A stretch of 60,738 nt of DNA from an uncultured Bacteroidota bacterium (GTDB taxonomy: Bacteria > Bacteroidota > Bacteroidia > Bacteroidales > P3). How positions within the stretch are numbered: position 1 is the stretch's first letter; each line of letters starts with the position of its first letter. A model generated the notes under the pieces. That model did no database searches and was not told the origin of the DNA. It saw only the letters and a list, made by a program, of their open reading frames with translations. Of the stretch, positions 5,411 through 52,839 are shown piece after piece. A program made the translations under genes and the position numbers. The DNA lies in NCBI GenBank assembly GCA_902771735.1, contig CACXXO010000013.1, positions 1 to 60,738 on the forward strand. Reading direction: 5' to 3'.

Positions 5411-5505
5411 GCCTGCCAACGACCTACCAACACCCTTTCAAGTCCTACCGTGGTAGGAGTTGGTTAGGAGTTGGTAGGTAGTTGATAGGTGGTTGTCAGG
5501 TAGTT
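5411..5505. repeat. Dispersed palindromic element, copy 1 (reverse orientation)
   Basis: The core TCCTACC-GT-GGTAGGA at 5443-5458 is flanked by AGTTGGTTAGGAGTTGGTAG on the right and by diverged CTACCAAC modules on the left. The reverse complement aligns over its length with copies 2, 4 and 5, including CTGACAACCACCTATCAACT. The GT spacer shows it is inverted relative to those copies. Confidence 0.85.
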
Positions 5506-5676
5506 GGCGCCAAAGGGGTATTGGGGCGTTTTTTGGCATTCCCGATACGTTTTTTAACTATTTTTATGTTAAATTCCGTTTCGGGAATCGGTTGTCTTGT
5601 GTCGCCTTTTTTTGTTAAAAACAGGTGTTGTGAGACGGAATGTTAAAAATATTGTTCCTATATAAAAAAAAAGTTG

Positions 5677-5684
5677 TATTTTTG
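5677..5684 (+). promoter_or_regulatory. glsA operon promoter -7 box (TATTTTTG)
   Basis: TATTTTTGCAG lies 28 bases upstream of the glsA ATG, after an A-rich tract. It matches the Bacteroidota consensus and is the only good box for the four-gene operon. Confidence 0.8.
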
Positions 5685-5712
5685 CAGTTTGAATTGTAAG
5701 AGCGAATAAAGG

Positions 5713-6561
5713 ATGGAACAGGTAGTTATTACCGAGAAGCATATTGATTTGCAGAAAATTTTGGCCGACAAGGGCGTCAAGGTGCCCGGTTTTGTGCTGA
5801 GATGGGGTGAGCGTCTGCTGCATATCGACGAAATCAACGAGACCATCTACAAGGACCGCAATTTGTTCGGCCTCGATTTCGTCTATGGTTTCACCGAGGG
5901 CAAGGAACCTTGGAACCTGGGACTCGAGGTGAAGGTGAACGGTTTGGAGAATCTGCCTGCCGACGGCCACCCTATGGTGGTGGGCAACCATCCGCTGGGC
6001 GGCCCCGATGGTCTGGCGCTGATGGGCGCCGTGGGGCACAAGCGGACGGACATTGTCTTCCCGGTGACCGATTTCCTGCTCTACCTGCCGGGATTGCGCG
6101 AGTTGTTTGTGCCCATCAACAAGGTGAACCGCACCAAGACCCTGGCCAACCTCGAGGAGGCTTTTGCCGGCGACAATATCCTGCTCTACTATCCTTCGGG
6201 TGCCGCTTCGCGCCGCCAGAAGGGAGTCATCAAGGACCTCGAGTGGCATCCCACTTTTGTGAAGAAGGCTGTGAAGTATCAACGCGACATCGTCCCCGTG
6301 TATACCGATGCACGCAACCGCAACATTTTCTATACGGTGGCAAACATCCGCAAGCGTCTGGGTATCAAATTCTCGTTCGAGATGGCTATGCTTCCGGCCG
6401 AGATGTTTGCCCAGCGCGGCAAGACTTTCAGCATCACTTTCGGGCATCCCATCCCGTGGCAGACTTTCGACCAGCGCCGCACGCCTGCCGAATGGGCCGC
6501 CATGATGCGCGAGCATGTCTACAAACTGAAAACGAACCCAAACGCAGAATTTGAGATTTAA
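5713..6561 (+). CDS. glsA: Lysophospholipid/lyso-glycine-lipid O-acyltransferase (GlsA-like)
   Basis: The 282-residue protein is a PlsC-fold acyltransferase. It has NHPLGGPDG at 92-100, the HX5D form of the acyltransferase motif, then a PINKVNRTKT block and YPSGAASRR. It is followed with no gap by a GNAT-type N-acyltransferase. In Bacteroides thetaiotaomicron the equivalent neighbouring pair GlsB and GlsA makes glycine lipids: GlsB N-acylates the amino acid with a 3-hydroxyacyl chain and GlsA adds the second, ester-linked chain. I infer the same role here at the inner membrane. The head group (glycine, serine-glycine or ornithine) cannot be decided from sequence. First gene of the operon glsA-glsB-engB-dacB. 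Confidence 0.8.
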   Translation: MEQVVITEKHIDLQKILADKGVKVPGFVLRWGERLLHIDEINETIYKDRNLFGLDFVYGFTEGKEPWNLGLEVKVNGLENLPADGHPMVVGNHPLGGPDGLALMGAVGHKRTDIVFPVTDFLLYLPGLRELFVPINKVNRTKTLANLEEAFAGDNILLYYPSGAASRRQKGVIKDLEWHPTFVKKAVKYQRDIVPVYTDARNRNIFYTVANIRKRLGIKFSFEMAMLPAEMFAQRGKTFSITFGHPIPWQTFDQRRTPAEWAAMMREHVYKLKTNPNAEFEI

Positions 6562-7680
6562 ATGGATATGGATCTGAGTTACATCGCCCCTCCCGTCGAC
6601 CGCGAACTAATCAAGAAAGAGTTGAAGCAGAAGCACTTCCTGAGGAAGAGCAACTACGGCAACAAGGAGATTTACGTCACCACGGCCCACCTCTCGCCCA
6701 ACATCATGCGCGAGATTGGGCGTCTGCGCGAGCTTAGTTTCGCCACCGATGGCGGCGGCACGGGCAACGAGATAGACATCGACATGTATGACACCCTCGA
6801 CGACCCCCACTGCTGCAAGCAACTGTTTGTGTGGGACCCTATGGAAGAGGAGATTGTGGGTGCCTACCGCTTCATTCATGGTTCGAACATGATGCGCCGC
6901 GAGGACGGGTCCATCGTCACGCCCACGGCCGACCAGTTCCAGTTCAGCGAGCAGTTCATCAATGAATACCTGCCCTATACCGTCGAGCTCGGCCGCGCTT
7001 TTGTCCAGCCTGCCTACCAGCCCGGCAACAATCTGCGCAAGGGGCTCTATAGCCTTGACAATCTGTGGGACGGCCTCGGATGTCTCTCGCTTGAGATTCC
7101 GGAGACACTCTATTTCTTCGGCAAAATCACCACCTACGGAGACCTCGACAGCAAGGCCCGCGACTTGATACTCTTCTTCTACCAGAAGCATTTCCCCGAC
7201 CGCGACGGCCTGGTGTGGCCTTACGAGCCCATCACCATCGAGTCGGACTACAACGAGTTGGTGCAGATGTTCAACGGCCGCAACTATAAGGAAGACTATC
7301 AGATACTGTTGCGCTCGGTGCGCCAGCTGGGTTGTACGGTGCCGCCCCTGTTCAATGCCTACATGAATCTCTCGTCGACCATGCGCTCGTTTGGCACCTG
7401 CCCCAACCACCATCTTCTGGGTACCTCCGACACGGGCATCCTCATCACCATCAACGACCTCTTCCCCGACAAGCGCAAGCGCTACCTTGACAGCTATGCC
7501 GACCGAAACATCAAACTCGACCGCCGCCGCTTGTTCGGTATCAACATGAAACTGTTGCCGTGGTGGAAACAGTGCAGCGAAGAGGAGATAGAAACCCTGA
7601 AAGAGCTCAGGATGCTGAAAAAGAAACAGACAGAGCTAAAACAGGAACTGAGAAAAATTAAACGCGCCAACAGAAAATAG
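6562..7680 (+). CDS. glsB: Amino-acid N-acyltransferase, GNAT superfamily (GlsB-like)
   Basis: The 372-residue protein belongs to the OlsB/GlsB and hemolysin-type acyltransferase group. Family blocks include REIGRLRELSFATDGGGTGNE, YRFIHG, and the conserved VELGRAFVQPAYQ followed by GLYSLDNLWDGL. It transfers a 3-hydroxyacyl group to an amino acid, the first step of glycine or ornithine lipid synthesis. The C-terminus (EIETLKELRMLKKKQTELKQ) is predicted to be a basic, helical coiled coil. ATG 6562 follows the glsA stop directly, so the two are very likely translationally coupled. In B. theta the genes lie in the order glsB then glsA, if I recall the locus correctly; here the order is reversed. 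Confidence 0.8.
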   Translation: MDMDLSYIAPPVDRELIKKELKQKHFLRKSNYGNKEIYVTTAHLSPNIMREIGRLRELSFATDGGGTGNEIDIDMYDTLDDPHCCKQLFVWDPMEEEIVGAYRFIHGSNMMRREDGSIVTPTADQFQFSEQFINEYLPYTVELGRAFVQPAYQPGNNLRKGLYSLDNLWDGLGCLSLEIPETLYFFGKITTYGDLDSKARDLILFFYQKHFPDRDGLVWPYEPITIESDYNELVQMFNGRNYKEDYQILLRSVRQLGCTVPPLFNAYMNLSSTMRSFGTCPNHHLLGTSDTGILITINDLFPDKRKRYLDSYADRNIKLDRRRLFGINMKLLPWWKQCSEEEIETLKELRMLKKKQTELKQELRKIKRANRK

Positions 7681-7685
7681 GGTAG

Positions 7686-8285
7686 ATGAAGATAAGCAGC
7701 GCAGTGTTCAGCATCAGTAGTCCCAACTACAAGAAATGTCCTTCGGACGGGCGTCCGGAGTATGCTTTCATTGGGAGGAGCAATGTCGGCAAGTCGTCGC
7801 TCATCAATATGCTGACAGGTGTCAAAGGCTTGGCCAAAACTTCGGGACGGCCCGGCAAGACACAGCTTATCAACCATTTCCTCATCAACGACGAGTGGTA
7901 TTTGGTCGATCTTCCCGGATATGGCTATGCCCGCACGTCGAAGTCGTCGCGCGAGAAGTGGAGCACCATGATGCGCGACTATTTTCTCCATCGAGAGGCG
8001 CTGACCAATGTGTATGTGCTGATAGACAGCCGCATCCCGCCTCAGAGGATAGACCTCGAATTCATCACCTTCCTCGGTTCCAACGGAGTGCCGCTCTCCA
8101 TCGTCTTCACCAAGACCGACAAGGAGAGCCAGCGCGAAGTGATGGCCAACATCAAGGCCATGAAGAAGGCGCTGTCGGAGATGTGGGAGGAGTTGCCGCC
8201 GATGTTCCTCACCTCGTCGCTCACAGGGATGGGACGCGAGGCGTTGCTCGATAATATTGAAAGAATTAACGAAACACTCAAATGA
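7686..8285 (+). CDS. engB: Ribosome biogenesis GTPase EngB (YihA/YsxC)
   Basis: The 199-residue protein has the complete GTPase motif set: G1 GRSNVGKS at 30-37, G3 DLPG at 75-78 and G4 TKTDK at 142-146, with the family signature RPGKTQLINHF between G1 and G3. EngB acts in assembly of the large ribosomal subunit and is essential in many bacteria. It starts five bases after glsB and its TGA stop overlaps the start of dacB (ATGA at 8282-8285), so it is a middle gene of the envelope operon. Confidence 0.95.
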   Translation: MKISSAVFSISSPNYKKCPSDGRPEYAFIGRSNVGKSSLINMLTGVKGLAKTSGRPGKTQLINHFLINDEWYLVDLPGYGYARTSKSSREKWSTMMRDYFLHREALTNVYVLIDSRIPPQRIDLEFITFLGSNGVPLSIVFTKTDKESQREVMANIKAMKKALSEMWEELPPMFLTSSLTGMGREALLDNIERINETLK

Positions 8286-9736
8286 CTATGAAACGATATG
8301 TTGCTTTGACAATTGCTTTGTTTATGACGTTCGTTGCCGGCGCCCAGCAGGTTGCCGACCTTGAGAAGACTATTCTCGGTGTCCACCGTGAAAGCGGCAT
8401 GCAGCACGGCATGCTGTCGGTGTGTGTCTATAATGTCAGTAAGGGCCAGGAGGTGTATAGCTACAATTCGCAGATGACCATGACTCCGGCCTCGGTGAAC
8501 AAGCTGTTCACCACGGGCGTGGCTTTCTCCCGCCTGGGGAGCGATTTCCGTTTCACCACCCAATTGGGCATCCGTGGCGAGGTCGACCGTGACGGAGTGC
8601 TTCATGGCAACATCTATATCATCGGCGGCGGTGACCCCATGCTTGGTTCCTATCGCTATCGCCAAACCACCCCAGACTCGCTTTTTGAGGGATGGACGCG
8701 TGCACTGAAGAAGAAAGGCATCAAGCGTGTCGACGGGCGTGTGTGCTACAATGTGAATGTCTTTGATGAACAGCCGCTTCACGACAGTTGGAGCTGGGGC
8801 GACGTGGGAAACTATTACGGTGCCGGCGTCAGCGGCCTCAATTTCCACGAGAACATGTATTTCGTCTATTTCAATCCCGGCGCTAAATTGGGCTATCCGG
8901 CCACAAGCGTGAGAACCACGCCGAAGAATATCAATGTGCTGGGCATTTGCGAGGTGACCACGGGACCTGAAGGTTCGGGCGACAATGTGACCATCTACGG
9001 AAGCCCCATGTCCAACGAGCGTCTCTATCGTGGCACTGTTCCGCTGGGCAAGAAGGATTTCCGCGTGCGCGGAGCATTGCCCAATCCCGCCAAACACTGT
9101 GCCGACCTCTTCGCCTCTTACCTCCGCACGCACGGTATCAGCATCTCGTCGAACTCCATGCAGGTATACTCGCAGCCCGACAGTTTGCGCATCGTCCTCG
9201 ACTACTATAGCAGCGACTACTACACCCTTGCACAGTATACCAACCTTACCAGCAACAATATCTACGCCGAGTCGATATTCAAATACCTCGGCTACAGGAA
9301 ATACGGCAAGGGCTCGTTTGCCAATGGTGCCAAGGTGGTGACCGATTATTTCCGCGAGAAGAAACTCGATATGGGAGGCGTCAAGATTGTCGACGGCAGT
9401 GGCCTGTCGACGCAGAACAAGGTGACGGCCGACTTTGTCTGCCGCTACCTCATGGCGCTAAGCAAAGAGCAATTCTTCAACGACTTCCTGCGTTCTCTGC
9501 CCAAAGTGGGCGAGAACGGACCTGCCAAGAGCCTCCTTACGTCGCTGCCTGCCGGTATGGTGGTGCGCATCAAGAGCGGCACTATGGATGGCGTGAAAGC
9601 CTATGCAGGATATATCGACGCCGCCAATGGCGACCGGCTGGCTTTTTCCATCATCAGCAATGGACATGAGGTTTCCTCGACAGTTGCTGCCGAAAAGCTC
9701 AACAAAATTCTCCAGAAGATAGTTTACATTTATTAA
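8282..9736 (+). CDS. dacB: D-alanyl-D-alanine carboxypeptidase/endopeptidase, peptidase family S13 (PBP4)
   Basis: The 484-residue periplasmic protein begins with a signal peptide (YVALTIALFMTFVAGAQQ). It has the three penicillin-binding motifs in order: SxxK as SVNK at 71-74, SxN as SNN at 324-326, and the KTG equivalent KSGT at 431-434. The long insert between SxxK and SxN is typical of S13 enzymes, which trim or cleave peptide cross-links in peptidoglycan. It overlaps engB by four bases; an ATG at 8288 is an alternative start. The operon ends here at the bidirectional terminator 9755-9784. Confidence 0.93.
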   Translation: MTMKRYVALTIALFMTFVAGAQQVADLEKTILGVHRESGMQHGMLSVCVYNVSKGQEVYSYNSQMTMTPASVNKLFTTGVAFSRLGSDFRFTTQLGIRGEVDRDGVLHGNIYIIGGGDPMLGSYRYRQTTPDSLFEGWTRALKKKGIKRVDGRVCYNVNVFDEQPLHDSWSWGDVGNYYGAGVSGLNFHENMYFVYFNPGAKLGYPATSVRTTPKNINVLGICEVTTGPEGSGDNVTIYGSPMSNERLYRGTVPLGKKDFRVRGALPNPAKHCADLFASYLRTHGISISSNSMQVYSQPDSLRIVLDYYSSDYYTLAQYTNLTSNNIYAESIFKYLGYRKYGKGSFANGAKVVTDYFREKKLDMGGVKIVDGSGLSTQNKVTADFVCRYLMALSKEQFFNDFLRSLPKVGENGPAKSLLTSLPAGMVVRIKSGTMDGVKAYAGYIDAANGDRLAFSIISNGHEVSSTVAAEKLNKILQKIVYIY

Positions 9737-9754
9737 TAGTAGGGATAAACAAAA

Positions 9755-9784
9755 AAAAGGCAGAACCATGCGGCTCTGCCTTTT
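9755..9784. terminator. Bidirectional terminator between dacB and mreB
   Basis: The stem AAAAGGCAGA / TCTGCCTTTT with a ten-base loop (inner pairs possible) has A- and T-runs on both sides. It can end dacB transcription rightward and mreB transcription leftward. Confidence 0.88.
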
Positions 9785-9803
9785 CGTTTTATCAATTCTC
9801 CTG

Positions 9804-10829
9804 TTAGCGGATAAGGAAGGAGAATTTGTTGAAGTTCTTCAGTGCGATACCGGTACCGCGAGCGACGGCGCGCAGGGGGTCTTCGGCGATGTGGACCTGC
9901 AGTTTGGTCTTGCTGCTCACGCGCTGGTCGAGACCGCGGAGCAGTGCACCGCCGCCAGCCAGATAGATGCCGTTCTTGTAGATGTCGGCAGCCAACTCGG
10001 GAGGTGTGGCGGCGAGGGTGTCGAGGATGGCCTGCTCGATGCGGGCGACAGATTTGTCGAGGGCATGGGCAATCTCTTTGTAGTTGACAGAGACTTCCTT
10101 GGGAAGGCCAGTCAGCAGGTCGCGGCCCAGAGTGCGGTAGTCCTCGGGGGGATCCTGCAACTCGCTGACGGCGGCACCAACGGCAATCTTCACCTTCTCG
10201 GCAGTACGCACGCCGATGAACATGTTGTGCTGACGGCGCATGTATTCCACTACGTTGTCGTTGAACTCGTCGCCGGCTACGCGGATGGAGTTGTTGCACA
10301 CGATGCCGCCGAGGGAGATGACGGCGATTTCGGCCGTGCCACCTCCAATGTCGACCACCATGTGACCCTCAGGCTGCAGCACGTCGATGCCGATACCAAT
10401 GGCGGCGGCCATGGGTTCGTGAATCATGCGGATTTCCTTGGCGCCGGCCTGCTCGGCGCTTTCGCGCACGGCACGCTCTTCGACGTTGGTGATACCGCTG
10501 GGGATGCAGATGACCATGCGCAGCGACGGTGGCAGGAACGAGCGGTTGACATTGGTCATGCCGATGAGCTCGCGGATGAGGTGCTGGGCCATTTCGAAGT
10601 CGGCGATAACACCACCGCGCAACGGACGGATGGTCTCGATGTTCTTGTTGTCGGTGCGGCCGTCCATGCGTTGGGCTTCCTTGCCCACGGCGATAACTTT
10701 GTTGTTGTTGCGGTCGACGGCTACGATGGAGGGCTCGTCGATGACGATTTGGTCGTTATATATCACGATGGAGTTGGCGGTGCCAAGGTCCATTGCAACT
10801 TCGCGGTTGAAGAATGATAAAAGTCCCAT
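9804..10829 (-). CDS. mreB: Rod shape-determining protein MreB
   Basis: The 341-residue actin-fold ATPase has phosphate-1 DLGTANS at 14-20, phosphate-2 DIGGGTAEIAVISLGG, and an adenosine motif around AGGGALLRGLDQRV. It polymerises under the inner membrane and guides lateral wall synthesis. The start is set at MGLLSFFNREVAMDLGT; longer readings run into purH. It starts four bases after the purH stop, an arrangement common in Bacteroidota. There purH-mreB is normally followed by mreC, mreD, mrdA and rodA. Here a terminator and convergent dacB follow at once, so the rest of the elongasome operon must lie elsewhere. Confidence 0.95.
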   Translation of the reverse strand: MGLLSFFNREVAMDLGTANSIVIYNDQIVIDEPSIVAVDRNNNKVIAVGKEAQRMDGRTDNKNIETIRPLRGGVIADFEMAQHLIRELIGMTNVNRSFLPPSLRMVICIPSGITNVEERAVRESAEQAGAKEIRMIHEPMAAAIGIGIDVLQPEGHMVVDIGGGTAEIAVISLGGIVCNNSIRVAGDEFNDNVVEYMRRQHNMFIGVRTAEKVKIAVGAAVSELQDPPEDYRTLGRDLLTGLPKEVSVNYKEIAHALDKSVARIEQAILDTLAATPPELAADIYKNGIYLAGGGALLRGLDQRVSSKTKLQVHIAEDPLRAVARGTGIALKNFNKFSFLIR

Positions 10830-10833
10830 GTGA

Positions 10834-12363: not shown

Positions 12364-12397
12364 TTATTATTATTTATATATACAATTGCACTACACA

Positions 12398-12442
12398 ACA
12401 TACTGACAATATACCACTTGTGCGATATATCGCTCAGTATGT
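12398..12442 (-). promoter_or_regulatory. Stem-loop at the predicted 5' end of the purH-mreB mRNA
   Basis: The outer arms ACATACTGA (12398-12406) and TCAGTATGT (12434-12442) are perfectly complementary, and enclose the perfect palindrome GCGATATATCGC (12422-12433). The purH promoter box ends at 12451 on this strand, so transcription should start within a few bases of the hairpin base. It could stabilise the mRNA, bind a regulator, or act as an operator in DNA form. Confidence 0.65.
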
Positions 12443-12450
12443 CACAGATG

Positions 12451-12458
12451 CAAAGTTA
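12451..12458 (-). promoter_or_regulatory. purH promoter -7 box (TAACTTTG)
   Basis: TAACTTTGCATC on the minus strand fits TAnnTTTG. It stands 87 bases upstream of the purH ATG, leaving a leader of about 80 nt that carries the 12398-12442 hairpin. Confidence 0.7.
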
Positions 12459-12479
12459 CGCAGAAAAATTAAAACCGCA

Positions 12480-12524
12480 AAAAAAACTTTGCCACCGCAG
12501 AGAAAAAATCTTGCGGTGGCAAAG
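12480..12524 (-). terminator. Intrinsic terminator of the flavodoxin-like gene
   Basis: Perfect 13-base arms CTTTGCCACCGCA (12487-12499) and TGCGGTGGCAAAG (12512-12524) are followed on the minus strand by a run of eight T. It lies 20 bases past the stop of the gene at 12546. Confidence 0.93.
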
Positions 12525-12545
12525 AGTTCTCAGGGAATGAGTCGT

Positions 12546-13376: not shown

Positions 13377-13401
13377 CTTTTTATATTTTATACATTAATA
13401 T

Positions 13402-14502: not shown

Positions 14503-14589
14503 ATCTTTACTTTGTTTTTACATTGTTAAAAACCGCACAGCGTTGTTTTTGATGTCGTTACACCTTCTTTCCGCTGCGGTTGCAGACTA

Positions 14590-14597
14590 CAAAGATA
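14590..14597 (-). promoter_or_regulatory. pfkA promoter -7 box (TATCTTTG)
   Basis: GTGTATCTTTGTAG on the minus strand matches the consensus, 87 bases upstream of the pfkA ATG. Confidence 0.72.
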
Positions 14598-14660
14598 CAC
14601 TTTTTTTCTCAATCGCGCACCATTATTTTCCACAAAAAAACGCCGTTCCGAACGCTTGTT

Positions 14661-14757
14661 GTCAACTGCCTGATAACCACTTATTAACTCCCTGCCAACT
14701 CCCTACCAACTCCTACCACGGTAGGAGTTGGTAGGGAGTTGGTAGGGTGATGGCAGG
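14661..14757. repeat. Dispersed palindromic element, copy 2 (forward orientation)
   Basis: It begins GTCAACTGCCTGATAACCAC and contains the core TCCTACC-AC-GGTAGGA. Arms of about 26 bases (left CTGCCAACTCCCTACCAACT.., right ..AGTTGGTAGGGAGTTGGTAG) have one mismatch. It sits between the glycosyltransferase stop and the pfkA promoter. Confidence 0.9.
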
Positions 14758-14768
14758 CCGATGGGGCT

Positions 14769-15794: not shown

Positions 15795-15831
15795 ATTCAA
15801 TAATTTATTGTCAAGGTACCGATTCGGGATG

Positions 15832-15839
15832 CAAAGATA
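15832..15839 (-). promoter_or_regulatory. Glycosyltransferase promoter -7 box (TATCTTTG)
   Basis: TAGTATCTTTGCATC on the minus strand, 37 bases upstream of ATG 15794. Confidence 0.75.
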
Positions 15840-20690: not shown

Positions 20691-23230
<2,540 letters not shown>

Positions 23231-33292: not shown

Positions 33293-33293
33293 A

Positions 33294-34292: not shown

Positions 34293-35716
34293 TGTTCGTC
34301 GTCTTTGGGTCCCAGTTCCTTCTTGGGCTTGCGGATAGGTGGCACATAGTCCATGCTGAACACGTGGCGGTGGGTCAGCAGTAGGATGGCGCTCAGCACC
34401 GCTCCCAGCACGTCGCAGATGGCACAGGCTTGCCACACTCCCGTCACGCCATCGCCATGGTTGAACTCCATAAGCATCTCGGGTAGTATCAGTGATAGTG
34501 GAATGAGGAAGATGACCTGCCGCGAGAGGCTTGTCACGATGGCTATCCACGGTTGGTCGATGCTCTGAAAGAGTTGCGAGTTGGTTACAGTGAACGCTAT
34601 CAACGGGCAGAAAACCAGCAGGTATCGCAACGCTGGCGCACCCATGTCGAGAATTTCGGGTTCTGAATTGAAAAAGCCTATGATGGTGCGCGGAAACACC
34701 AAAGCCATCACCATTCCCAGTACGCCTACCAGCACGCACACCTTCATTGTCAGCAGGTAGACCTCACGCAGGCGGTCGTTCCTGCGTGCGCCATAGTTGT
34801 AGCCCGCAATGGGCTGCATCGCTTGGCACAGTCCTAACATGAGCATGAATATCAGGCCCATGAACGAGTTGGCAGCTCCGTACACCGTCATCGCGTCGTC
34901 GCCGCCATAGGCTATCAGTTGTCGGTTTAGCACGGCCACCACGGCAAAGGCTGCCACATTCATCGAGAACGGGCTGATGCCGATGGCCAGGATGTTACGG
35001 AAGATATAAAACTTTGGTGCCCAGGCATGACGCTTGAATCGGATGAACGACTTGGGCTGCACGAAGTGGAGCACCGCCACGGTGGCCGAGGCTGCCATGG
35101 AGATGGTCGTGGCCCATGCGGCGCCCTTCATCCCCCAGCCAAACTCGCTGATGAAGAGGAAGTCGAGGAAGATGTTCAGCGCAGCTCCTCCCACCATGAT
35201 CCACATGCCCTTCATGGGGTAGCCCGACGAGCGAATCAGGCCCACAAGGTTGAATGTCAGCGTCAAAAGGAACATACCCGGCAGCACGATGTACATATAC
35301 TCGCATGCCGCGTCGAGCACCTGCGTCGAGGCACCATCGGCAAAAAGATTCATGATGGGATGCATCCACAGATAGCCTCCCACTACAAAGAAAAAACCAA
35401 ACAAGAACGTCAGCAATACACTGTTGCCCAATATCTTCTCGGCCCAGCGCACATCCTTCCTCCCCAGCACGATGCTCATGCGGGCGCTCGAACCGGCTCC
35501 CACCAGTGACCCGAAGGCGTGGATGATGTTCATCAGCGGGAAGGTGATGGTCAGTGCCGCCAACAGCATTTTTCCGTCGCCAATGCTGTTGCCGAGGAAG
35601 ATACGGTCCACAATATTGTATATTGACGTCACCACCTGGCTCGCCACCGCAGGCAGCGCATACTGCCACAGCAGTTTCCCCATCGGTTTGGTCTCCAATT
35701 CTAAAATGTTGTCCAT
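34289..35716 (-). CDS. MATE family multidrug/metabolite exporter
   Basis: The 475-residue protein has about twelve membrane helices and MATE family blocks: KLLWQYALPAVASQVVTSIYN, IVDRIFLGN, GAGSSARMSIVLGRKD, and a repeat of the fold from about residue 235 (ILAIGISPFSMNVAAF). Family members exchange Na+ or H+ for drugs or metabolites; the substrate is unknown. It lies between the M28 peptidase and murB, overlaps murB by four bases, and is 18 bases from the peptidase stop. Confidence 0.92.
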   Translation of the reverse strand: MDNILELETKPMGKLLWQYALPAVASQVVTSIYNIVDRIFLGNSIGDGKMLLAALTITFPLMNIIHAFGSLVGAGSSARMSIVLGRKDVRWAEKILGNSVLLTFLFGFFFVVGGYLWMHPIMNLFADGASTQVLDAACEYMYIVLPGMFLLTLTFNLVGLIRSSGYPMKGMWIMVGGAALNIFLDFLFISEFGWGMKGAAWATTISMAASATVAVLHFVQPKSFIRFKRHAWAPKFYIFRNILAIGISPFSMNVAAFAVVAVLNRQLIAYGGDDAMTVYGAANSFMGLIFMLMLGLCQAMQPIAGYNYGARRNDRLREVYLLTMKVCVLVGVLGMVMALVFPRTIIGFFNSEPEILDMGAPALRYLLVFCPLIAFTVTNSQLFQSIDQPWIAIVTSLSRQVIFLIPLSLILPEMLMEFNHGDGVTGVWQACAICDVLGAVLSAILLLTHRHVFSMDYVPPIRKPKKELGPKDDEQ

Positions 35717-37284: not shown

Positions 37285-37372
37285 GTCAACTGCCTGATAA
37301 CCACCTATTAACTCCCTACCAACTCCCTACCAACTCCTACCACAGTAGGAGTTGGTAGGGGGATGGTAGGGT
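37285..37372. repeat. Dispersed palindromic element, copy 4 (forward orientation)
   Basis: It starts GTCAACTGCCTGATAACCAC exactly as copy 2 does. Tandem TCCCTACCAAC modules follow, then the core TCCTACC-AC-AGTAGGA (one mismatch) and a shorter right arm GTTGGTAGGGGGATGGTAGG. Confidence 0.9.
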
Positions 37373-43924: not shown

Positions 43925-43933
43925 CACAATACC

Positions 43934-46802: not shown

Positions 46803-46814
46803 GATGAGGGATGA

Positions 46815-47660
46815 TTAGAGATTGTAAAAGAGGCCGAGGGAGCCGTAGATGGGGTAGAGGGACTGCTGCACGGTTGTGAAATCACTGTTGAAGATGCCGG
46901 AGAGGCCCCAAGAGAGGGAGGCAAAGAGGCCAAGGCGGGGGGTGGCGTTCCAGTCGAGGGAGAGGGAGAGCCCCCATTGGAGGGAGCGCATGGAGGGGCT
47001 GAAGTCGTAGGTGGCCCATTCGCCCTCCTTGTCGCCGATGTCAATTTTGGGGCCGGTGGGGTCGCCCTGGCGCAGGTAGCCGGAGGAGGCGATGCCGCTG
47101 AAGTTCTTGGAGAACAAGAGGGAGAAGAAGGGGCCGAAACTGAATTGAAAATTGGAAATTGAAAATTGAAAATTAATTGGTACGGTGAGCATCCACTGCG
47201 TCACTTGCTGGGAGATGTGGCCGGAGAAGAGACCGGAGATTTGGCTGTTGCCCTTGGTCATCTCCATGCGGTAGCTTTTGACGGTGGCGTCGATGTCCAT
47301 GCCTTTGTTCTCGAGCCGGAGCCCTGCAGAGATGGAGAATCGGGGGTTCGCTCCACTGGGGTTGCAGGCGGTGTCTCTTTTGGAGCCAGGCAGTGGGATT
47401 GGGAATTGGATGTCGGCTCCGACGGACGGCGACGCCGTCGGCCTGAAGGCGTCGATGCTGCGGATGGAGGCGGGGAGGGGAATGGGAGAGGTGCCGCCGA
47501 GGTTGTAGCCGACGCGGATTTTGACATGGAGGCTGTCGGCCCTGCAAAAAGAGGGATGGGAATTCCCCGCTGGGTTTGTTTTTTTTTCAGTGGTGGCCAA
47601 GGCCTGTGAGGCAGGCAGGAAGAATGAGAATATGGCGGCTATGACAATGATTTTCTTCAT
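46815..47660 (-). CDS. Outer-membrane beta-barrel protein partnered with a PCMD lipoprotein
   Basis: The 281-residue protein has a signal peptide (IIVIAAIFSFFLPASQALA) and amphipathic strands: LHVKIRVGYNLGG, PRFSISAGLRLENKG, LQWGLSLSLDWNATPRLGLF, LYPIYGSLGLFYNL, ending in a barrel-like terminus. About residues 162-173 (NFQFSISNFQFS) are encoded by a TTGAAAATT-type repeat at 47141-47178 and read as an extra amphipathic strand. It follows the PCMD gene in the same direction, a pairing seen in other Bacteroidota. It is presumably an accessory outer-membrane component of this glycan cluster. No known transport motif. Confidence 0.75.
   Translation of the reverse strand: MKKIIVIAAIFSFFLPASQALATTEKKTNPAGNSHPSFCRADSLHVKIRVGYNLGGTSPIPLPASIRSIDAFRPTASPSVGADIQFPIPLPGSKRDTACNPSGANPRFSISAGLRLENKGMDIDATVKSYRMEMTKGNSQISGLFSGHISQQVTQWMLTVPINFQFSISNFQFSFGPFFSLLFSKNFSGIASSGYLRQGDPTGPKIDIGDKEGEWATYDFSPSMRSLQWGLSLSLDWNATPRLGLFASLSWGLSGIFNSDFTTVQQSLYPIYGSLGLFYNL
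47141..47178. repeat. TTGAAAATT-type repeat within the barrel gene
   Basis: Three to four AATTGAAA(A) units, in frame, encode NFQFSISNFQFS on the minus strand. Confidence 0.75.
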
Positions 47661-47686
47661 GACTGTTATTTTTTTTATCTATCATC

Positions 47687-48823
47687 TTAATTCCCGAATT
47701 CGACTGTCACTTCGTCGACGAAGAGCGTGCTGCCGATGGCGCCCTCGAAGGTGTCGCCGTCCTTGCTGGAGGAGAAGACGACGGTGTAACTGTAGCCCAT
47801 AGCGGCAAGAATGGCTGGGTCGGCGGTGCCGCCCTCGAAAGTCATCTCGAAGCGGGTCCACTCGTCAGTGGCGGCAGGCACGAGCTGAGCCTTGCTGACG
47901 ATGAGGTCGCTGGAGAGCACGTTGTCGCCGTAGAGCGCCACAGGGTTGCCCCCGGCATCCTGGTTGCGGAAGAAGACGGCGTAGATGTGGCCCTGGTCCA
48001 CACGATCGGCAACGGGCTGCATGGTGGCGTCGGTGAAGGTGTCGCCGGGATGGTATTTGTACCAGCCGGTGATTTTCACGGGCTGTTTGTCGGTGGGGAT
48101 GCCGAATTCGGTGGCTTTCAGAGGATTGAGTAGGACGGCATTGACGTTGAACTTGCCGAGGAAGAGGTTGCCGGCGGCGATGGGTTTGCCGAAGGCTGCC
48201 CCGAAATCGCCGGTCGACTGAGTGGAGAGGCAAGCGCCCTTGCCCTGGTAGCCGTTGTCGGTGGAGTGGGTGGGGAACAACTCGGGGGTCCAGTCGGCAT
48301 GGAGGATGCCCACACCGGCGTTGCCCGAGGCCCAGATGTTGCGGCGCTCCCCGTTGTCAAGCTCGTAGAAGACATGGTAGGTGCAGCCGTTGGAGAAGGT
48401 GTCCACCGCCACATGCTCGAAGCTGAAGAGACAGGAGGTATGGGTGCTGACGGTCTGGAAGTCGACGCTGTAGGAGCGTGTCCACTGGCCGTCTTCCGAC
48501 GTCACGGTGTAGGTCACGGGGCCTTGGGAAAAATCCTGCGGCGAGCCGTTGGCGGGCGTGATGGTGGCGCCGGGGGTGAGGGCGAAGTGTACGGGTATGA
48601 GCGGCAGCCCGCTCTTGGTGCGCACCTGGAAGACGATCTCCGTGCTGTTCGACGGTATGTTGTCTATCCGCATCTGCGTGCCCTGGTAGAAGAAGCTCTC
48701 GTATTCTGCGCCTTCCACCCAGGCGCTGAGGATGTCGCATTCGTCGTTTTTCGGCTCTTCCTTGATGCAGGCCGCGAAAAACAGAGGCAGACACAGCATA
48801 AGGCATAGCTTGAGTGTTCTCAT
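47687..48823 (-). CDS. PCMD domain lipoprotein (putative glycan-binding surface protein)
   Basis: The 378-residue product has a lipoprotein signal (LCLMLCLPLFFAACIKEE), an N-terminal Ig-like part, and the PCMD region with WASGNAGVGILHADW, GYQGKGACLSTQSTGDFGAAFG, IAAGNLFLGKF, ITGWYKYHPGDTF, and the C-terminal DGDTFEGAIGSTLFVDEVTVEF. Known PCMD proteins (for example BT1012 of B. theta) lie in carbohydrate gene clusters and are thought to bind glycans. Start ATG 48823 fits the signal. The promoter box is at 48845-48852. It leads the run PCMD-barrel-GH97. Confidence 0.88.
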   Translation of the reverse strand: MRTLKLCLMLCLPLFFAACIKEEPKNDECDILSAWVEGAEYESFFYQGTQMRIDNIPSNSTEIVFQVRTKSGLPLIPVHFALTPGATITPANGSPQDFSQGPVTYTVTSEDGQWTRSYSVDFQTVSTHTSCLFSFEHVAVDTFSNGCTYHVFYELDNGERRNIWASGNAGVGILHADWTPELFPTHSTDNGYQGKGACLSTQSTGDFGAAFGKPIAAGNLFLGKFNVNAVLLNPLKATEFGIPTDKQPVKITGWYKYHPGDTFTDATMQPVADRVDQGHIYAVFFRNQDAGGNPVALYGDNVLSSDLIVSKAQLVPAATDEWTRFEMTFEGGTADPAILAAMGYSYTVVFSSSKDGDTFEGAIGSTLFVDEVTVEFGN

Positions 48824-48844
48824 GGTTTTTTGGATTTTAAAATG

Positions 48845-48852
48845 CAAAGATA
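48845..48852 (-). promoter_or_regulatory. PCMD gene promoter -7 box (TATCTTTG)
   Basis: TTGTATCTTTGCATT on the minus strand, 21 bases upstream of ATG 48823. Confidence 0.78.
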
Positions 48853-48883
48853 CAAAAAAATCCGTATACTGAGCTTTTTTTCG

Positions 48884-48891
48884 TATCTTTG
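48884..48891 (+). promoter_or_regulatory. DUF3298 gene promoter -7 box (TATCTTTG)
   Basis: TCGTATCTTTGCAG on the plus strand, 24 bases upstream of ATG 48916. It lies back to back with the PCMD promoter. Confidence 0.78.
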
Positions 48892-48915
48892 CAGTCGAAA
48901 AAAACAAATAATCTT

Positions 48916-49722
48916 ATGAAGAAACAGATTTTTTTCCTTGCCCTTTGCCTTGCATTGTTGGCAGGCTGTAGACATGACAACAAGGAATTCAAGACACACA
49001 CCCTCAGTGGTGAAAAGTGCTGGCTGCAGATTTTTGACGAACCGTACGTTCTCGAATTGGATACTATCGGCGTGAAGGTGACCTACACCCTGCAATGGCC
49101 CGACAAGGGAGTGATAAGTCCGGCGGCCGAGCGGGAAATGATGTACCTCTGCTTTGCTGACAGTAACAAAGTCAATGTAGAGTCCGCCATCCAAGGTTGG
49201 ATTGTGGATGACATCAACGATTTGCAACCTGTGGAGAGTTTCAACGAGGAAAACGGTTTCAGCTATCTCGACATCAAAAGCACCTGCCGGAAAGACAGCA
49301 CGCTTGCAACCTTCATCATCCAAACCGAAGGCTTCCCTCTCGGAGCTGCACATGGCATGCACTCCACCAACTTCCTGACCGTCGACCTCGAGACTGGCAA
49401 CACCATCCACTTCACCGACCTCGTCGCCGACACCAACCTCCTCTGCGAGGCCATCGCCCATGCCATCTACGACCTCGAGGTCAACAAAGAGGTTCAAGAG
49501 TGTCTTTTCGACGAGTTCCGCGATGTCGAGCGCATGCCCATGCCCGAGGACTTTTTCATCGACTCCACCCGCAGCACCATCGTCGTCAACTATGGCCTCT
49601 ACCACATCGCCCCCTACGCCTGCGGCATACAGAGCATCGTCCTCCCCATCTTCTGGCTCTCCAAGCACGTAGACCTCACCCCCTACGCCAAGCGCCTCTT
49701 CGGTCCTGGATCCACCTTGTAG
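48916..49722 (+). CDS. DUF3298 (RsiV-like) lipoprotein
   Basis: The 268-residue protein has a lipoprotein signal (FFLALCLALLAGCRHD). The DUF3298 region includes HGMHSTNFLTVDLETGNTIHF and the typical end YHIAPYACGIQSIVLPIFWL. In Bacillus the RsiV homologue senses lysozyme, but Bacteroidota lipoproteins with this domain are uncharacterised and have no sigma factor gene nearby here. Start ATG 48916 is chosen over 48889, which overlaps the promoter box. The TAG stop is supplied by a GAGACGCGGC palindrome at 49718-49745. Confidence 0.8.
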   Translation: MKKQIFFLALCLALLAGCRHDNKEFKTHTLSGEKCWLQIFDEPYVLELDTIGVKVTYTLQWPDKGVISPAAEREMMYLCFADSNKVNVESAIQGWIVDDINDLQPVESFNEENGFSYLDIKSTCRKDSTLATFIIQTEGFPLGAAHGMHSTNFLTVDLETGNTIHFTDLVADTNLLCEAIAHAIYDLEVNKEVQECLFDEFRDVERMPMPEDFFIDSTRSTIVVNYGLYHIAPYACGIQSIVLPIFWLSKHVDLTPYAKRLFGPGSTL

Positions 49723-49745
49723 AGACGCGGCCAGCCCCGTCTCCC
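49718..49745. repeat. GAGACGCGGC-type palindrome, diverged copy
   Basis: TGTAGAGACGCGGC is followed by the imperfect arm GCCCCGTCTC. It provides the stop codon of the DUF3298 gene. The same palindrome occurs twice at 60511-60616. Confidence 0.75.
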
Positions 49746-49758
49746 AAAACGAATAAAT

Positions 49759-50700
49759 ATGGAACCACGGCAGAAAGAAAAGAAAATCGTCACTTTCGGA
49801 CGCTCTCTCGCCATCCTGGTGAAAACACTCGTTACGATGGTGCTGATCGCCATGTGTGTCACCACCGGCAAAGAAGGCTTTGACTTCTTCGTTGCCCTCA
49901 CTATTGTCCTCTGGCTTCCACTGTTGATAGTGGGTCTCATCATCACCCTCTGCAACATCCGCATGCGCGACACCTACCAGCGCGCCATTGTCCTGTGGGG
50001 TGTAGGCAACGTGTTGCTCGTCGGCCTGTCATGGTGGCTCGACAATCGCCTGTCCAACCAAGTGGAAGCCGATAACCTTGTCGCCCACTACTGCGAGCAC
50101 GAGCGCGAGTTGTGGGATTTGGTCGACTATACCCGCGCGGCGATGGACAGCGGCGCCTATCTGGACATTGAGTTCGACGGCCGCAAGGTGGAGCGTTTCC
50201 TCACCCATACCGCCGATGGGGAATACAAGGGCGGATGGAGCTCCCAAGGGCCCATCAATGCCGTCGAGATAGGTGCCTCCATCGGCCTCATGGAAGACGA
50301 AATCGAAGGCATCCGCCAGCGACTAAAGGCGGCCGACTGCATCAGCATTTCGCTGACAAATTATGGTCTCGACAATGGCGTCAGCATTCCTATGACGACC
50401 TACGGCATGGCCGACAGCGTGGCAGCCTGCGGCAACCGCCGCACGGTGCGCGACATTAATATTGTTGAAATCGGACGCATGCGTTACATGATGAGCGCAT
50501 ACTACTATAATCTCTACCGTCATCCGATGAGCGACAGCACCTGGAACCACCTTCTTCTCGACGACTGCACCCGCATCCCCGTCTGCGACACCATGGTACT
50601 CGAATACGGCAGCCCCGCTTTCGGCAGCGAATGCTATCCCCAAAGGGACGAAATTGTCCGCCGACTCAACCTGAAAGAGAGAAAAAGTGGCGGCCGATAA
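49759..50700 (+). CDS. Membrane protein with three predicted helices, unknown function
   Basis: The 313-residue product has three hydrophobic segments near the N-terminus (residues about 17-38, 44-66 and 76-95). A soluble domain of about 215 residues follows, with VDYTRAAMDSGAYLDIEFDG, SIGLMEDEIEGIRQRL, SISLTNYGLDNGVSIPM and DINIVEIGRMRYMMSAYYYN. I recognise no family. It follows the DUF3298 gene by 36 bases that hold the palindrome, and may be co-transcribed with it. Confidence 0.65.
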   Translation: MEPRQKEKKIVTFGRSLAILVKTLVTMVLIAMCVTTGKEGFDFFVALTIVLWLPLLIVGLIITLCNIRMRDTYQRAIVLWGVGNVLLVGLSWWLDNRLSNQVEADNLVAHYCEHERELWDLVDYTRAAMDSGAYLDIEFDGRKVERFLTHTADGEYKGGWSSQGPINAVEIGASIGLMEDEIEGIRQRLKAADCISISLTNYGLDNGVSIPMTTYGMADSVAACGNRRTVRDINIVEIGRMRYMMSAYYYNLYRHPMSDSTWNHLLLDDCTRIPVCDTMVLEYGSPAFGSECYPQRDEIVRRLNLKERKSGGR

Positions 50701-50730
50701 AAAATATTTTGCCATTTTTTGAATTTTTAG

Positions 50731-50738
50731 TATTTTTG
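50731..50738 (+). promoter_or_regulatory. pepD promoter -7 box (TATTTTTG)
   Basis: TTAGTATTTTTGCACCC, 28 bases before the pepD ATG. Confidence 0.78.
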
Positions 50739-50766
50739 CACCCACGAAACAAATACATTATTATAT

Positions 50767-52227
50767 ATGAAACAAGACCCTTTGAAGAACTTGAAACCCG
50801 CCCGCGTGTGGCATTGGTTTGGTGAAATAATGCAGATTCCGCGTCCCTCGAAGCATGAGGAACGCATCTCCGCCTACCTCGTCAACTGGGGCAAGGAGCA
50901 TGGCCTCGAAACCAAGAGCGACAAGCTGGGCAACGTGCTCATCCGCAAGCCCGCCACCAAAGGCTATGAGAAGAGCGCCGGCGTGTGCCTCCAGGCCCAC
51001 ATGGACATGGTCTGCGAGAAGAACAGCACCAAGAAGTTCGACTTCATGAAAGACCCCATCCAGCCTGTGCTCGACGGTGAGTGGCTCACCGCCGACGGCA
51101 CCACCCTCGGTGCCGACGACGGCATCGGCGTTGCCGCCATCCTCGCCATCCTCGAGGACAAGAAGATTGCCCATCCCGCACTCGAAGCCCTCATCACCGT
51201 CGACGAGGAGACCGGCCTCACCGGCGCCAACGGCCTCAGCAAGAGCTGGCTCAAGAGCGACATCCTCCTCAACTTCGACGACGAGGACGAGGGCGAATAC
51301 TGCATCGGCTGCGCCGGCGGCATCGACACCACCGCCGAGATGGATTACAAGCTGGTGCCCGCCGTCCGTGGCCACAAGGCTTTCTTCGTCAAGGTGAGCG
51401 GTCTGGTGGGCGGCCACAGCGGCGACGACATCAACCGCGGCCGCGCCTGCGCCAACAAGCTCCTCAACCGCATCCTCTGGGAGGGTACCTATAAATATGG
51501 TATGCGTCTCGCCACCATCGACGGCGGCAACCTTCGCAACGCCATAGCCCGCGAAGCCGAGGCACTCGTCACCGTGCCCGAAGACCGCGTCCGCGCCTTC
51601 AAGACCATGGTCACCAAGATGGGCAAGGCCATGGTGTTCGAATTCCGCAGCACCGAGCCCGACATGGAGTTCGAGTTGCGCGATGTCAAGGCGTTGCCCA
51701 AGAAACTCATCGACAAGGAGACGCAGGAGCGCCTCGTCAATCTCCTCTATGCCTGCGCCCACGGTGTGCTGGCCATGAGCCGCGAGATCGACAATTTTGT
51801 CGAAACCTCCACCAACCTCGCCTCCATCAAGATGAAAGACGGCGTCATCCACATCGCCACCTCGCAGCGCAGCTCCGTCGAGAGCGCCAAGATGGCCGCC
51901 GCCGCCAAGCTCGAGAGCACCTTCCGCCTCGCCGGCTGCCGTGTGAAACACTCCGACGGCTACCCCGGCTGGACCCCCAACCCCGACAGCCGTGTGCTGA
52001 AGGTGGGTGTCGACGTCTACAAGAAGATGTACGGCCGCGAGCCTATCGTCCGCGCCATCCACGCCGGCCTCGAGTGCGGCCTCATCGGCGAGAAATATCC
52101 CAACATGGACATGATCTCCTACGGCCCCACCCTCCGCGGCGTCCACAGCCCCGACGAGCGTATCGAGATCAAGACCGTCGAGATGTTCTGGAACCAGACC
52201 CTTGAAATCCTCAAGAAATTGAAATAG
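50767..52227 (+). CDS. pepD: Aminoacyl-histidine dipeptidase (M20C)
   Basis: The 486-residue cytoplasmic metallopeptidase has EIMQIPRPSKHEERIS, VCLQAHMDMVCEKNSTKKFDF (His-x-Asp metal site), GTTLGADDGIGVAAILAILED, EALITVDEETGLTGA (catalytic Glu pair) and VSGLVGGHSGDDINRGRACA. PepD cleaves Xaa-His and other dipeptides, using two Zn. Length and motifs match the family fully. It has its own promoter box and is followed by a stem-loop at 52237-52272. Confidence 0.96.
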   Translation: MKQDPLKNLKPARVWHWFGEIMQIPRPSKHEERISAYLVNWGKEHGLETKSDKLGNVLIRKPATKGYEKSAGVCLQAHMDMVCEKNSTKKFDFMKDPIQPVLDGEWLTADGTTLGADDGIGVAAILAILEDKKIAHPALEALITVDEETGLTGANGLSKSWLKSDILLNFDDEDEGEYCIGCAGGIDTTAEMDYKLVPAVRGHKAFFVKVSGLVGGHSGDDINRGRACANKLLNRILWEGTYKYGMRLATIDGGNLRNAIAREAEALVTVPEDRVRAFKTMVTKMGKAMVFEFRSTEPDMEFELRDVKALPKKLIDKETQERLVNLLYACAHGVLAMSREIDNFVETSTNLASIKMKDGVIHIATSQRSSVESAKMAAAAKLESTFRLAGCRVKHSDGYPGWTPNPDSRVLKVGVDVYKKMYGREPIVRAIHAGLECGLIGEKYPNMDMISYGPTLRGVHSPDERIEIKTVEMFWNQTLEILKKLK

Positions 52228-52236
52228 AAACTCTTT

Positions 52237-52272
52237 CCTCCGTTCCCCCTCGAGAGGGGATGGAGGGCTTTT
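52237..52272 (+). terminator. Stem-loop after pepD
   Basis: CCTCC..CCCCTC / GAGGGG..GGAGG arms around CGA are followed by GCTTTT. It is a plausible terminator; its T-run is short. Confidence 0.6.
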
Positions 52273-52318
52273 AATTATTAACCAACAGTTGCGCCCGACA
52301 CGTATCAGGGAACAGAAA

Positions 52319-52672
52319 ATGAAGAAAAAATTATTGACTTTGATCGCCGTTGTTGCAATGGCATTCTCCATGACCAGCTGCATGACCACCAGCGCCGTCA
52401 GCGCCATGAGTGACGGCACCGCCATCTCTGCCGCCAACTTCTCCTATGTCAGCACCGTTAAAGCTGAAGCCGACTGCAATGTCTACCTCCTGCTTTTCGG
52501 CGGTTCCAATGTCGAGCAGCAGGTCCTCGACCAGCTCCGTAGCAAAGCCACCCTCAAAGACGGACAGGCGCTGACCAACATCCGCCTCACCACCGAAGAA
52601 GAGTATATCCTCGGCGGCATCGTCATCAAGAAAACCGTCCACGGCACCGCCGACATTGTGCAGTTCAAATAA
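52319..52672 (+). CDS. DUF6567-like small lipoprotein
   Basis: The 117-residue product has a lipoprotein signal (LLTLIAVVAMAFSMTSCMTT). A compact domain with AANFSYVSTVKAEADCNVYL, LDQLRSKATLKDGQALTNIR and IVIKKTVHGTADIVQF resembles the DUF6567 (TRL-like) lipoproteins of Bacteroidota. Function unknown. Start ATG 52319 is chosen for the signal; an upstream start at 52289 is less likely. It is followed by a good terminator. Confidence 0.75.
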   Translation: MKKKLLTLIAVVAMAFSMTSCMTTSAVSAMSDGTAISAANFSYVSTVKAEADCNVYLLLFGGSNVEQQVLDQLRSKATLKDGQALTNIRLTTEEEYILGGIVIKKTVHGTADIVQFK

Positions 52673-52698
52673 GAACTTCCTCTGTCTTTAAAACCCCC

Positions 52699-52722
52699 AA
52701 AGCCATCCTCTCGGATGGCTTT
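52699..52722 (+). terminator. Terminator after DUF6567-like gene
   Basis: Arms AAAGCCATCC / GGATGGCTTT with a TCTC loop; the descending arm ends in TTT and runs into CTTCG. Confidence 0.8.
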
Positions 52723-52730
52723 CTTCGTCT

Positions 52731-52839
52731 TGCCACCAACTACCTGTTTTCCACCTACCAACGCCCTGTCAACTCCCTACCAACTCCTACCACGGTAGGA
52801 GTTGGTAGGGAGTTGACAGGCTCTTGGCAGGTCGTTGGA
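52731..52839. repeat. Dispersed palindromic element, copy 5 (forward orientation)
   Basis: The core TCCTACC-AC-GGTAGGA has perfect flanking arms AACTCCCTACCAAC / GTTGGTAGGGAGTT. Diverged outer parts read TACCTGTTTTCCACCTACCA and GACAGGCTCTTGGCAGG. It lies between two convergent transcription units. Confidence 0.9.

Follow-up and report, generated by a model that had tools for sequence, protein, structure and literature searches.

Dyad-symmetric arrays of 11-bp modules between the genes of a Bacteroidales bacterium suggest an undescribed kind of genome-wide repeat

The window, i.e., the whole stretch of 60,738 nucleotides analysed here, raises the question of what five similar palindromes located between its genes represent. 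The initial annotation had placed them at 5411..5505, 14661..14757, 23135..23230, 37285..37372 and 52731..52839, and all five were confirmed at these positions. Copy 1 (+ strand; core TCCTACC GT GGTAGGA at 5443-5458) carries a tail, TGTCAGGTAGTT, at 5494-5505 pointing right, and separates a divergent pair consisting of a CstA-like gene (-) and an acyltransferase gene (+). Copy 2 (- strand; core at 14711-14726) has its tail, the reverse strand of AACTGCCTGATA, at 14664-14675 pointing left, and lies in tandem setting (-,-) between glycosyltransferase and phosphofructokinase genes. Copy 3 was assigned to neither strand, its tail polarity being without a confident call; its centre (ACCTACC GT GGTAGGA) occupies 23168-23183 in a tandem setting (-,-) upstream of a GH97 glycoside hydrolase gene. 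Copy 4 (- strand; core TCCTACC AC AGTAGGA at 37335-37350; tail at 37288-37299 pointing left) is flanked by tandem (-,-) M20 and M28 peptidase genes. Copy 5 (- strand; core at 52785-52800; tail near 52738-52749 pointing left) has a small + strand gene on one side and a tRNA on the - strand (52914-52985) on the other, and achieved the best score in the search with model R1 (111.6 bits), the model having been built from this copy and 35 others.

The core TCCTACC-(AC/GT)-GGTAGGA, proposed to be common to all five, was found in copies 1, 2 and 5, but not exactly in all, because copies 3 and 4 deviate from it (ACCTACC-GT-GGTAGGA and TCCTACC-AC-AGTAGGA, respectively). Likewise, stems of up to about 26 bp apply to copies 2 (27 bp) and 5 (26 bp), the longest unbroken + strand stems of the others being shorter (18 bp in copy 4, 8 bp in copy 1 and 9 bp in copy 3). 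Fold z-scores of the five copies on the + strand ranged between -4.3 and -11.7. A sequence-blind scan of the window for palindromes with periodic arms returned exactly these five places at period 11 and nothing at the remaining periods tried (6 to 18).

The family is by no means confined to the five copies, which the initial annotation had named as a result that would refute it: at least 117 distinct copies were located in the window's own genome (R1 search with the best 150 candidates scored, plus further locating). All R1 counts are lower bounds, with at most 150 matches for the own genome and at most 31 or 12 per genome elsewhere. Furthermore, the exact core occurs at 72 genome sites and the reversed pattern at none, which excludes chance. 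In accordance with the proposed placement between genes, none of the 96 copies examined lies inside a gene (gene calls by a custom script, with some starts wrong, e.g. L278), and all gene settings are represented, as was also proposed, including tandem (42/96) and divergent ones (35/96). rRNA operons had been presumed to lie behind five copies with long common flanks; this proved incorrect, the flank running into a family of paralogous proteins.

Each array is a dyad-symmetric stack of 11-bp modules with a total length of about 110 bp. The modules keep a strict 11-bp phase, the self-identity of arms in the own genome reaching 0.58 (lag 11) and 0.51 (lag 22), compared to 0.28 and 0.27 in the flanks; 11 bp is approximately one helical turn. 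Arm-to-arm pairing exceeds that of shuffled partners only within the inner ~26 bp and not farther out. In 77 of 113 copies, polarity is clear and one arm bears a tail (the 36 copies without confident polarity were left out of these counts), at position +43 (n=31), +64 (n=24), +53 (n=5), +75 (n=5) or elsewhere (n=12), i.e., mostly at module steps. A replication-oriented signal was rejected, as tail orientation is mixed along contigs and matches GC skew in only 34/70 cases. Without reference to module sequence, a strict scan recovered 18 and a relaxed scan 26 of 27 known own copies, each with the same single additional place (C10:45591).

Neighbouring arrays avoid each other: only 1 of 42 gaps was shorter than 5 kb, whereas 11.9 were expected when positions were drawn from real intergenic gaps (2 of 52 arrays, near contig ends and outside any gap, were left out). 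This avoidance was seen in three data sets with unrelated modules, and arrays are spaced at roughly 5-15 kb. Spacing in multiples of 7 kb was a by-eye impression in contig C4, absent in C1 and C2.

Comparison with close relatives showed the array site to be common in 12 of 15 comparisons; two of the 11 comparisons of one round, both empty, were left out because one flank was a 45-46% paralog. At the empty site L006 in genome G099, a plain terminator takes the place of the array, and no target duplication was visible there by eye; L137 is a second empty site. More distant members of the genus possess arrays of the same build, composed of unrelated modules. The relaxed scan yielded 19 matches at period 11 in G106 (C18), versus 5, 0, 4 and 0 at periods 9, 10, 12 and 13, and 6 matches in G025 (C8), versus 2, 3, 3 and 1. 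Array density amounted to 6.0-8.2 per 100 kb in the own genome, G106, G025 and G002, and to 2.0 in G091. The sites of own arrays were also occupied in more distant species in 2 of 8 cases, about the chance level; in the reverse test, an own array lay between the same flanks for 3 of 20 arrays of the distant species and for 1 of 78 gaps lacking an array, a test that is biased because the own loci were centred on arrays. Several distant species have arrays at priA and purN, but the genus-wide site sharing that this suggested failed in the wider test. In the order-wide search, performed with a model biased towards certain sequences on 295 genomes (at most 12 matches each), just 2 further genomes had matches. 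One of them, G384, contains a multi-copy family, which overturned the early impression of a family limited to one genus; another Bacteroidales family thus has a version of the array. Outside the genus, 6 of 10 stretches were scanned, the other four being only 1-3 kb long. A phage origin was dismissed, the three module patterns giving no match in the viral_contigs data.

Even spacing, species-specific modules and renewal from the centre are invisible from a single window. The evidence on renewal comes from orthologous copies, whose identity was above that of paralogs by 0.10-0.20 at 24-78 bp from the centre, but by just 0.03 at 13-23 bp (42 pairs; positions 2-12 are uninformative because pairs were selected by the exact core). 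A weaker trend (0.01, 0.05, 0.05, 0.11, 0.07 and 0.10) was seen in the 29 pairs whose flanks had diverged most. The inner modules of orthologous copies thus appear barely to keep locus identity, whereas the outer ones appear to do so. In G106 and G025, locus-specific modules surround a centre that is nearly the same from copy to copy; arms match the consensus up to a point 23-73 bp out in G106 (29 arms of one module family) and 24-68 bp out in G025 (23 arms). In G025, copies such as those at 34873 and 105098 hold, as an unexpanded centre, the sequence that is repeated as 11-bp modules in other copies, and a copy in G122 combines outer modules resembling CCCTATCATCT/CCCTATCAACT, as in the own genome, with the centre GTTCTTCAGT, as in G025. 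In G025, the outer modules draw on a small vocabulary, combined in 59 distinct ordered pairs out of 64, a pattern that independent drift within a degenerate binding motif would fit as well. Gradient and layers, like build, copy number, placement between genes, spacing and the sites common to close relatives, are direct observations; judging from inner modules with little locus memory and from near-identical centres, the arrays seem to undergo renewal starting at the centre and to be homogenised genome-wide.

We therefore tentatively favour, with a probability of roughly 45%, self-renewing palindromic arrays that act at the DNA level, are copied from centre to centre and grow in 11-bp steps. 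An 11-bp duplication at the centre would add modules and move older ones outward, and a successful centre would be copied into the centres of other arrays genome-wide, most simply by ectopic gene conversion from the tip of a hairpin or cruciform, or by nested insertion there. Closely related species would keep inherited sites, whose centres would change in concert. Arrays lying near each other would either be lost through recombination between homologous palindromes a few kb apart, with deletion of the intervening DNA, or be blocked from forming, leaving the spacing of ~5-15 kb. The copying step, its enzyme and the cause of the exclusion zone are what we infer here; neither was a donor-recipient event observed directly nor an enzyme found. 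A purely selfish process would not predict similar densities in species whose modules are unrelated, which speaks against the favoured reading. Further points against it are arm-to-arm pairing limited to the inner ~26 bp, the vocabulary of the outer modules in G025 and the empty site L006 with its plain terminator.

A doubtful but conceivable alternative is that, starting from nucleation at the dyad, a sequence-specific DNA-binding protein spreads both ways over helically phased 11-bp sites, so that the chromosome would be partitioned or packed by predicted platforms every 5-15 kb, with modules differing by species because protein and sites co-evolve. Phase, dyad and spacing are consistent with a protein-binding iteron array, and the avoidance between nearby arrays, seen in three data sets whose modules are unrelated, the fixed 11-bp phase, the occurrence in every gene setting without a tie to transcription direction, the 12/15 sites common to close relatives and the drift of outer modules within a motif would all suit it. 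However, no binding protein was identified, more distant species hardly share sites (2/8 own sites), arrays are not consistently oriented along the chromosome or relative to GC skew (34/70), and near-identical centres at many loci require physical copying beyond selection. A bolder and rather unlikely reading is a bacterial counterpart of satellite or centromere DNA, i.e., evenly spaced dyad 11-bp iteron platforms whose build, density and position between genes are kept while the letters are replaced genome-wide, centre first, driven by a co-evolving binding or copying protein, and which would organise the chromosome every 5-15 kb. A non-autonomous MITE or REPIN mobilised by a transposase, whose target immunity would set the spacing, is unlikely: dispersed, multi-copy and intergenic occurrence, the polar tail, one relative with an empty site and the exclusion that target immunity could account for would agree with it, but Y1_Tnp (PF01797) was not found in the 96% complete own genome, speaking against the REP/RAYT idea of the initial annotation (the search covered this genome and this domain alone; as a control, it was found in 5 of 14 named genomes). 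As for the MITE variant of that idea, constant ends were not seen in G106 and G025, where the shared stretch stops at varying distances, which makes a classical MITE unlikely; moreover, sequence is replaced wholesale while the architecture stays common, and the extragenic distribution of REPIN doublets is described as random (PMC3116915), against over-dispersed arrays.

Loss of the SbcCD hairpin nuclease in part of the genus, allowing palindromes to accumulate, is only a lead and improbable as the cause. None of the 14 genomes with 25 or more R1 matches scored above the cut-off of the SbcD model, versus 56 of 105 others (assuming that both surveys drew the same 119 genomes), and at two loci, picked since the own genome has arrays there, 0 arrays were found in 51.8 kb of 6 SbcD+ genomes versus 17 in 191.5 kb of 22 SbcD- genomes. 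However, the contrast fades when any R1 match is counted (19/52 vs 37/67, p 0.06), SbcD is present in G002 (6 arrays in 100 kb), G122 (2 in 15 kb) and, together with 22-24 R1 matches, in G052 and G174, and unselected 15-kb stretches lacked arrays in 3 of 4 SbcD- and 3 of 4 SbcD+ genomes; these counts are uncorrected for descent or genome completeness, and R1 favours the own genome's modules. Very improbable is an RNA-level element, be it a 3' UTR stabiliser, terminator or small RNA. Hairpins are strong on both strands, and a sense-strand T5 follows the centre by 20-140 bp in 30 of 42 tandem copies (before the centre in 21/42), but G.T and A.C mismatches lack the strand bias of an RNA element (sense 72 vs antisense 80, p 0.57, 42 tandem copies), tails point with and against tandem transcription about equally (17 vs 16), and 35/96 copies lie between divergent genes. 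The claimed lack of T-runs holds near the centres, where T5/A5 within 40 bp occurs in 2/96 copies (none in the window, 0/42 tandem), but not at 60-120 bp, where many copies have one; several of these are ordinary neighbouring terminators. Together with the divergent copies and the ordinary terminators alongside several arrays, this upholds the view that the arrays do not behave as terminators. None of the window's copies matched a known Rfam family, the only window matches at gathering thresholds being two tRNAs.

If the favoured reading is true, the repeat is defined by build and spacing, not by sequence, and searches by sequence or family model would therefore miss such arrays. They would provide a natural system for the growth, spread and tolerance of palindromes in bacteria and make it testable whether bacterial chromosomes have evenly spaced, fast-changing organising sites.

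In line with the initial annotation, no description of the arrays was found in the open-access literature searched. Arrays of one build but with quite different letters in related species point to a type of genome-wide repeat not described so far. Intrinsic terminators share the strong intergenic hairpin, but nearly all arrays lack a T-run at the hairpin, occur in all gene settings and several have ordinary terminators alongside. Porphyromonas gingivalis is a relative within the Bacteroidales. Its BrickBuilt MITE is likewise described as always intergenic, with tandem modules within an element ended by inverted repeats, namely 23-nt direct repeats between leader and tail, in 19 copies in one strain (PMC4596501), whereas the arrays consist of mirror-image modules of period 11, inverted about the centre, number more than 100 copies and have modules replaced between species. 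REP, BIME and REPIN sequences resemble the arrays in their many short palindromic, mainly intergenic copies with species-differing sequences, and CGTC repeats without a dedicated transposase are reported from Bacteroidetes in the same source (PMC3733652). REPs are, however, described as stem-loops of 20-40 bp, one end of which bears a GTAG or CGTC tag, a form not matched by ~110-bp arrays of 11-bp modules, in which GTAG recurs inside the arms (own genome and G025) instead of tagging one end, and is absent from the main modules of G106 and G002. REPs are served by RAYT transposases, in contrast to the own genome, where no Y1_Tnp was found, and REPIN doublets, described as random in placement, differ from over-dispersed arrays. 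The plasmid partition centromeres of the parC/ParR type consist of phased 11-bp direct repeats in two blocks at a single plasmid site beside their own genes. Phased 11-bp repeats in two blocks are thus common to both, whereas the arrays occupy more than 100 chromosomal sites and their blocks are inverted.

All five palindromic arrays assigned to the window by the initial annotation were present as described, although copies 3 and 4 needed small corrections to their cores. The window, which also encodes a C10 family peptidase (53091-54929) carrying an I69 inhibitor prodomain as well as a Por secretion tail, is one of the 37 contigs of a 2.29-Mb genome. The core TCCTACCNNGGTAGGA was found at 72 sites in this genome (reversed control: 0). 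Using a covariance model made from 36 copies together with pattern lists, 100 distinct places were detected, and full reading of contigs C4, C5, C10 and C1 (positions 1-80,000) added 17 copies absent from the model matches listed, resulting in at least 117 places. Since the fully read stretches contained 27 arrays in 444 kb, the genome total would be approximately 140. No description of such arrays was found in the open-access literature searched. The first 30 kb of C1, where no match to the covariance model was obtained up to E 1, are AT-rich (GC 0.39-0.47 per 10 kb), which would fit a recent acquisition.

The arms are composed of 11-bp modules stacked in fixed phase and mirrored around a 2-bp spacer, the outward consensus being GGTAGGAGTT GGTAGGGnGTT GGTAGGGnGTT, along which the information per base drops across five modules from ~1.7 to ~0.35 bits. 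At lags of 11 and 22, self-identity within an arm was 0.58 and 0.51, respectively, compared to 0.28 and 0.27 in the flanks. Pairing between the arms was above the level of shuffled partners only within ~26 bp of the centre (0.53 vs. 0.34 at position 19), with hardly any excess past 30 bp. One arm is terminated by the tail TATCAGG(T/C)AGTT; of the 77 copies with clear polarity, 55 have this tail at +43 or +64, 10 at +53 or +75, and 12 elsewhere.

None of 96 copies was located inside a gene, the settings being tandem (42), divergent (35), convergent (17) or unassigned (2). The distance from the core to a stop codon can be as short as 42 bp, whereas a start codon was less than 81 bp away in just one flank out of 113. 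An RNA or terminator role is disfavoured by these settings, by the rarity of T5 or A5 runs within 40 bp of the array centre (2 of 96 copies), by the true terminators adjoining several arrays, and by the tail direction, which was unrelated to transcription (17 to 16); it was likewise unrelated to GC skew (34/70).

A strict sequence-blind scan at period 11 detected arrays in every stretch of the own genome and, per 100 kb, 6, 9, 5 and 1 arrays in the genomes G025, G106, G002 and G091, respectively. Over all stretches, periods 10, 12 and 13 yielded 0, 2 and 1 arrays, and the remaining periods within 6-18 yielded 0-4 per stretch; none was detected at period 11 in six stretches (20 kb each) from outside the genus. 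The modules are unrelated in sequence, namely ACTGAAGAACT in G025, ACATAAGAAAT and GATAGTACAAC in G106, and ACAACAAGCGG in G002, and 54 of 55 matches of a relaxed scan in these genomes were intergenic. In G384, representing another family, 15 matches to an array of ACGAACATGGT modules occurred in 8 places, with modules visible by eye in all except the one on C250 (L403). One weak array-like match with GGCTTTGATAA modules (L246) was observed in G347, from another Bacteroidales family. In the own genome, C10:45591 was reported by the sequence-blind scan and not by the covariance model, and is possibly an array of other modules.

Named carriers among the matches listed were Bacteroidales assemblies including RUG156, RUG429, UBA2939 and RUG153. 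When the own genome was compared to two relatives, G087 and G099 (UBA2939), an array lay between the same two flanking genes in 7 of 9 usable comparisons (in four of the nine, these genes are 1.2-2.3 kb apart in the relative), and in 5 of 6 comparisons in the reverse direction; as a baseline, an array is present in 27 of the 104 own gaps that measure 150 bp or more. For 13 further copies with a single flank located in the relative, an array was nearby in 6. More distant genus members shared just 2 of 8 own array sites. Many more shared sites appeared in other comparisons, but their pairs had been picked on the exact core. Upstream of priA, where the own genome carries a palindromic array, G014 (L292) and G105 (L286) have direct 11-bp arrays (TAGATGATGCC, TAGACCTAGCA) that are poorly palindromic or non-palindromic. 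Also upstream of priA, three species (L281 in G138, L289 in G109 and L290 in G124) share a conserved sequence several tens of bases long, GGGCAAGCTGTTTATATCGC..., which lies outside gene calls and could represent an RNA element or a regulatory one.

The excess of ortholog over paralog identity rose from 0.03 at 13-23 bp from the centre to 0.15-0.20 at 46-78 bp, close to the 0.13-0.17 of the flanks beyond; it rose less, from 0.01 to 0.07-0.11, when only the 29 pairs whose flanks had diverged most were considered. In both G106 and G025, locus-specific modules enclose a near-identical centre, the shared stretch ending 23-73 bp and 24-68 bp from the centre, respectively. In some G025 copies the centre is unexpanded and consists of the sequence that other copies repeat as their unit, and G122 combines an outer layer of modules like those of the own genome with a G025-like centre. 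The outer G025 modules (32 arrays vs. 7 for a control pattern) draw on a small vocabulary: the 96 modules fall into 42 kinds, of which the eight most frequent account for 53%, and 59 of 64 ordered pairs are distinct. Together, the nested layers and the centre-out gradient point to copying of array centres between loci, possibly by gene conversion begun at hairpin tips or by nested insertion. Five own copies (L182, L186, L187, L191 and L193 on C21, C23, C26 and C27) share more than 200 bp of flank, several being near contig ends; at L186, this flank runs into an open frame of 450 aa, in which a signal peptide is apparent by eye and for which Pfam gave no match at E 0.001.

Loss of SbcD, a subunit of the hairpin nuclease SbcCD, may be connected with the arrays. 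SbcD (TIGR00619) is patchy across the genus, being above the cut-off in 56 of 119 genomes, few of which are strong carriers of the own module type; it was present in none of the 14 richest carriers of that type vs. 56 of the 105 others. However, this is only a lead, because the array carriers G002 and G122 possess SbcD.

Neighbouring arrays avoid each other. Among the 42 gaps between neighbours in eight fully read stretches (own genome plus two relatives), one was shorter than 5 kb, compared to 11.9 expected from random draws of an equal number of real intergenic gaps (none of 5000 draws gave so few; CV 0.61 vs. 0.90). Avoidance was also detected for the unrelated modules of G106 (1/24 vs. 7.3 expected, p 0.0008; CV 0.41 vs. 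0.85) and, more weakly, of G025 (2/16 vs. 5.2 expected, p 0.04). This exclusion would follow if nearby copies recombine and delete. Alternatively, the arrays may serve as a putative binding platform, which would better account for phase, spacing and similar density, but not for the copied centres; centre copying and a binding platform may both hold.
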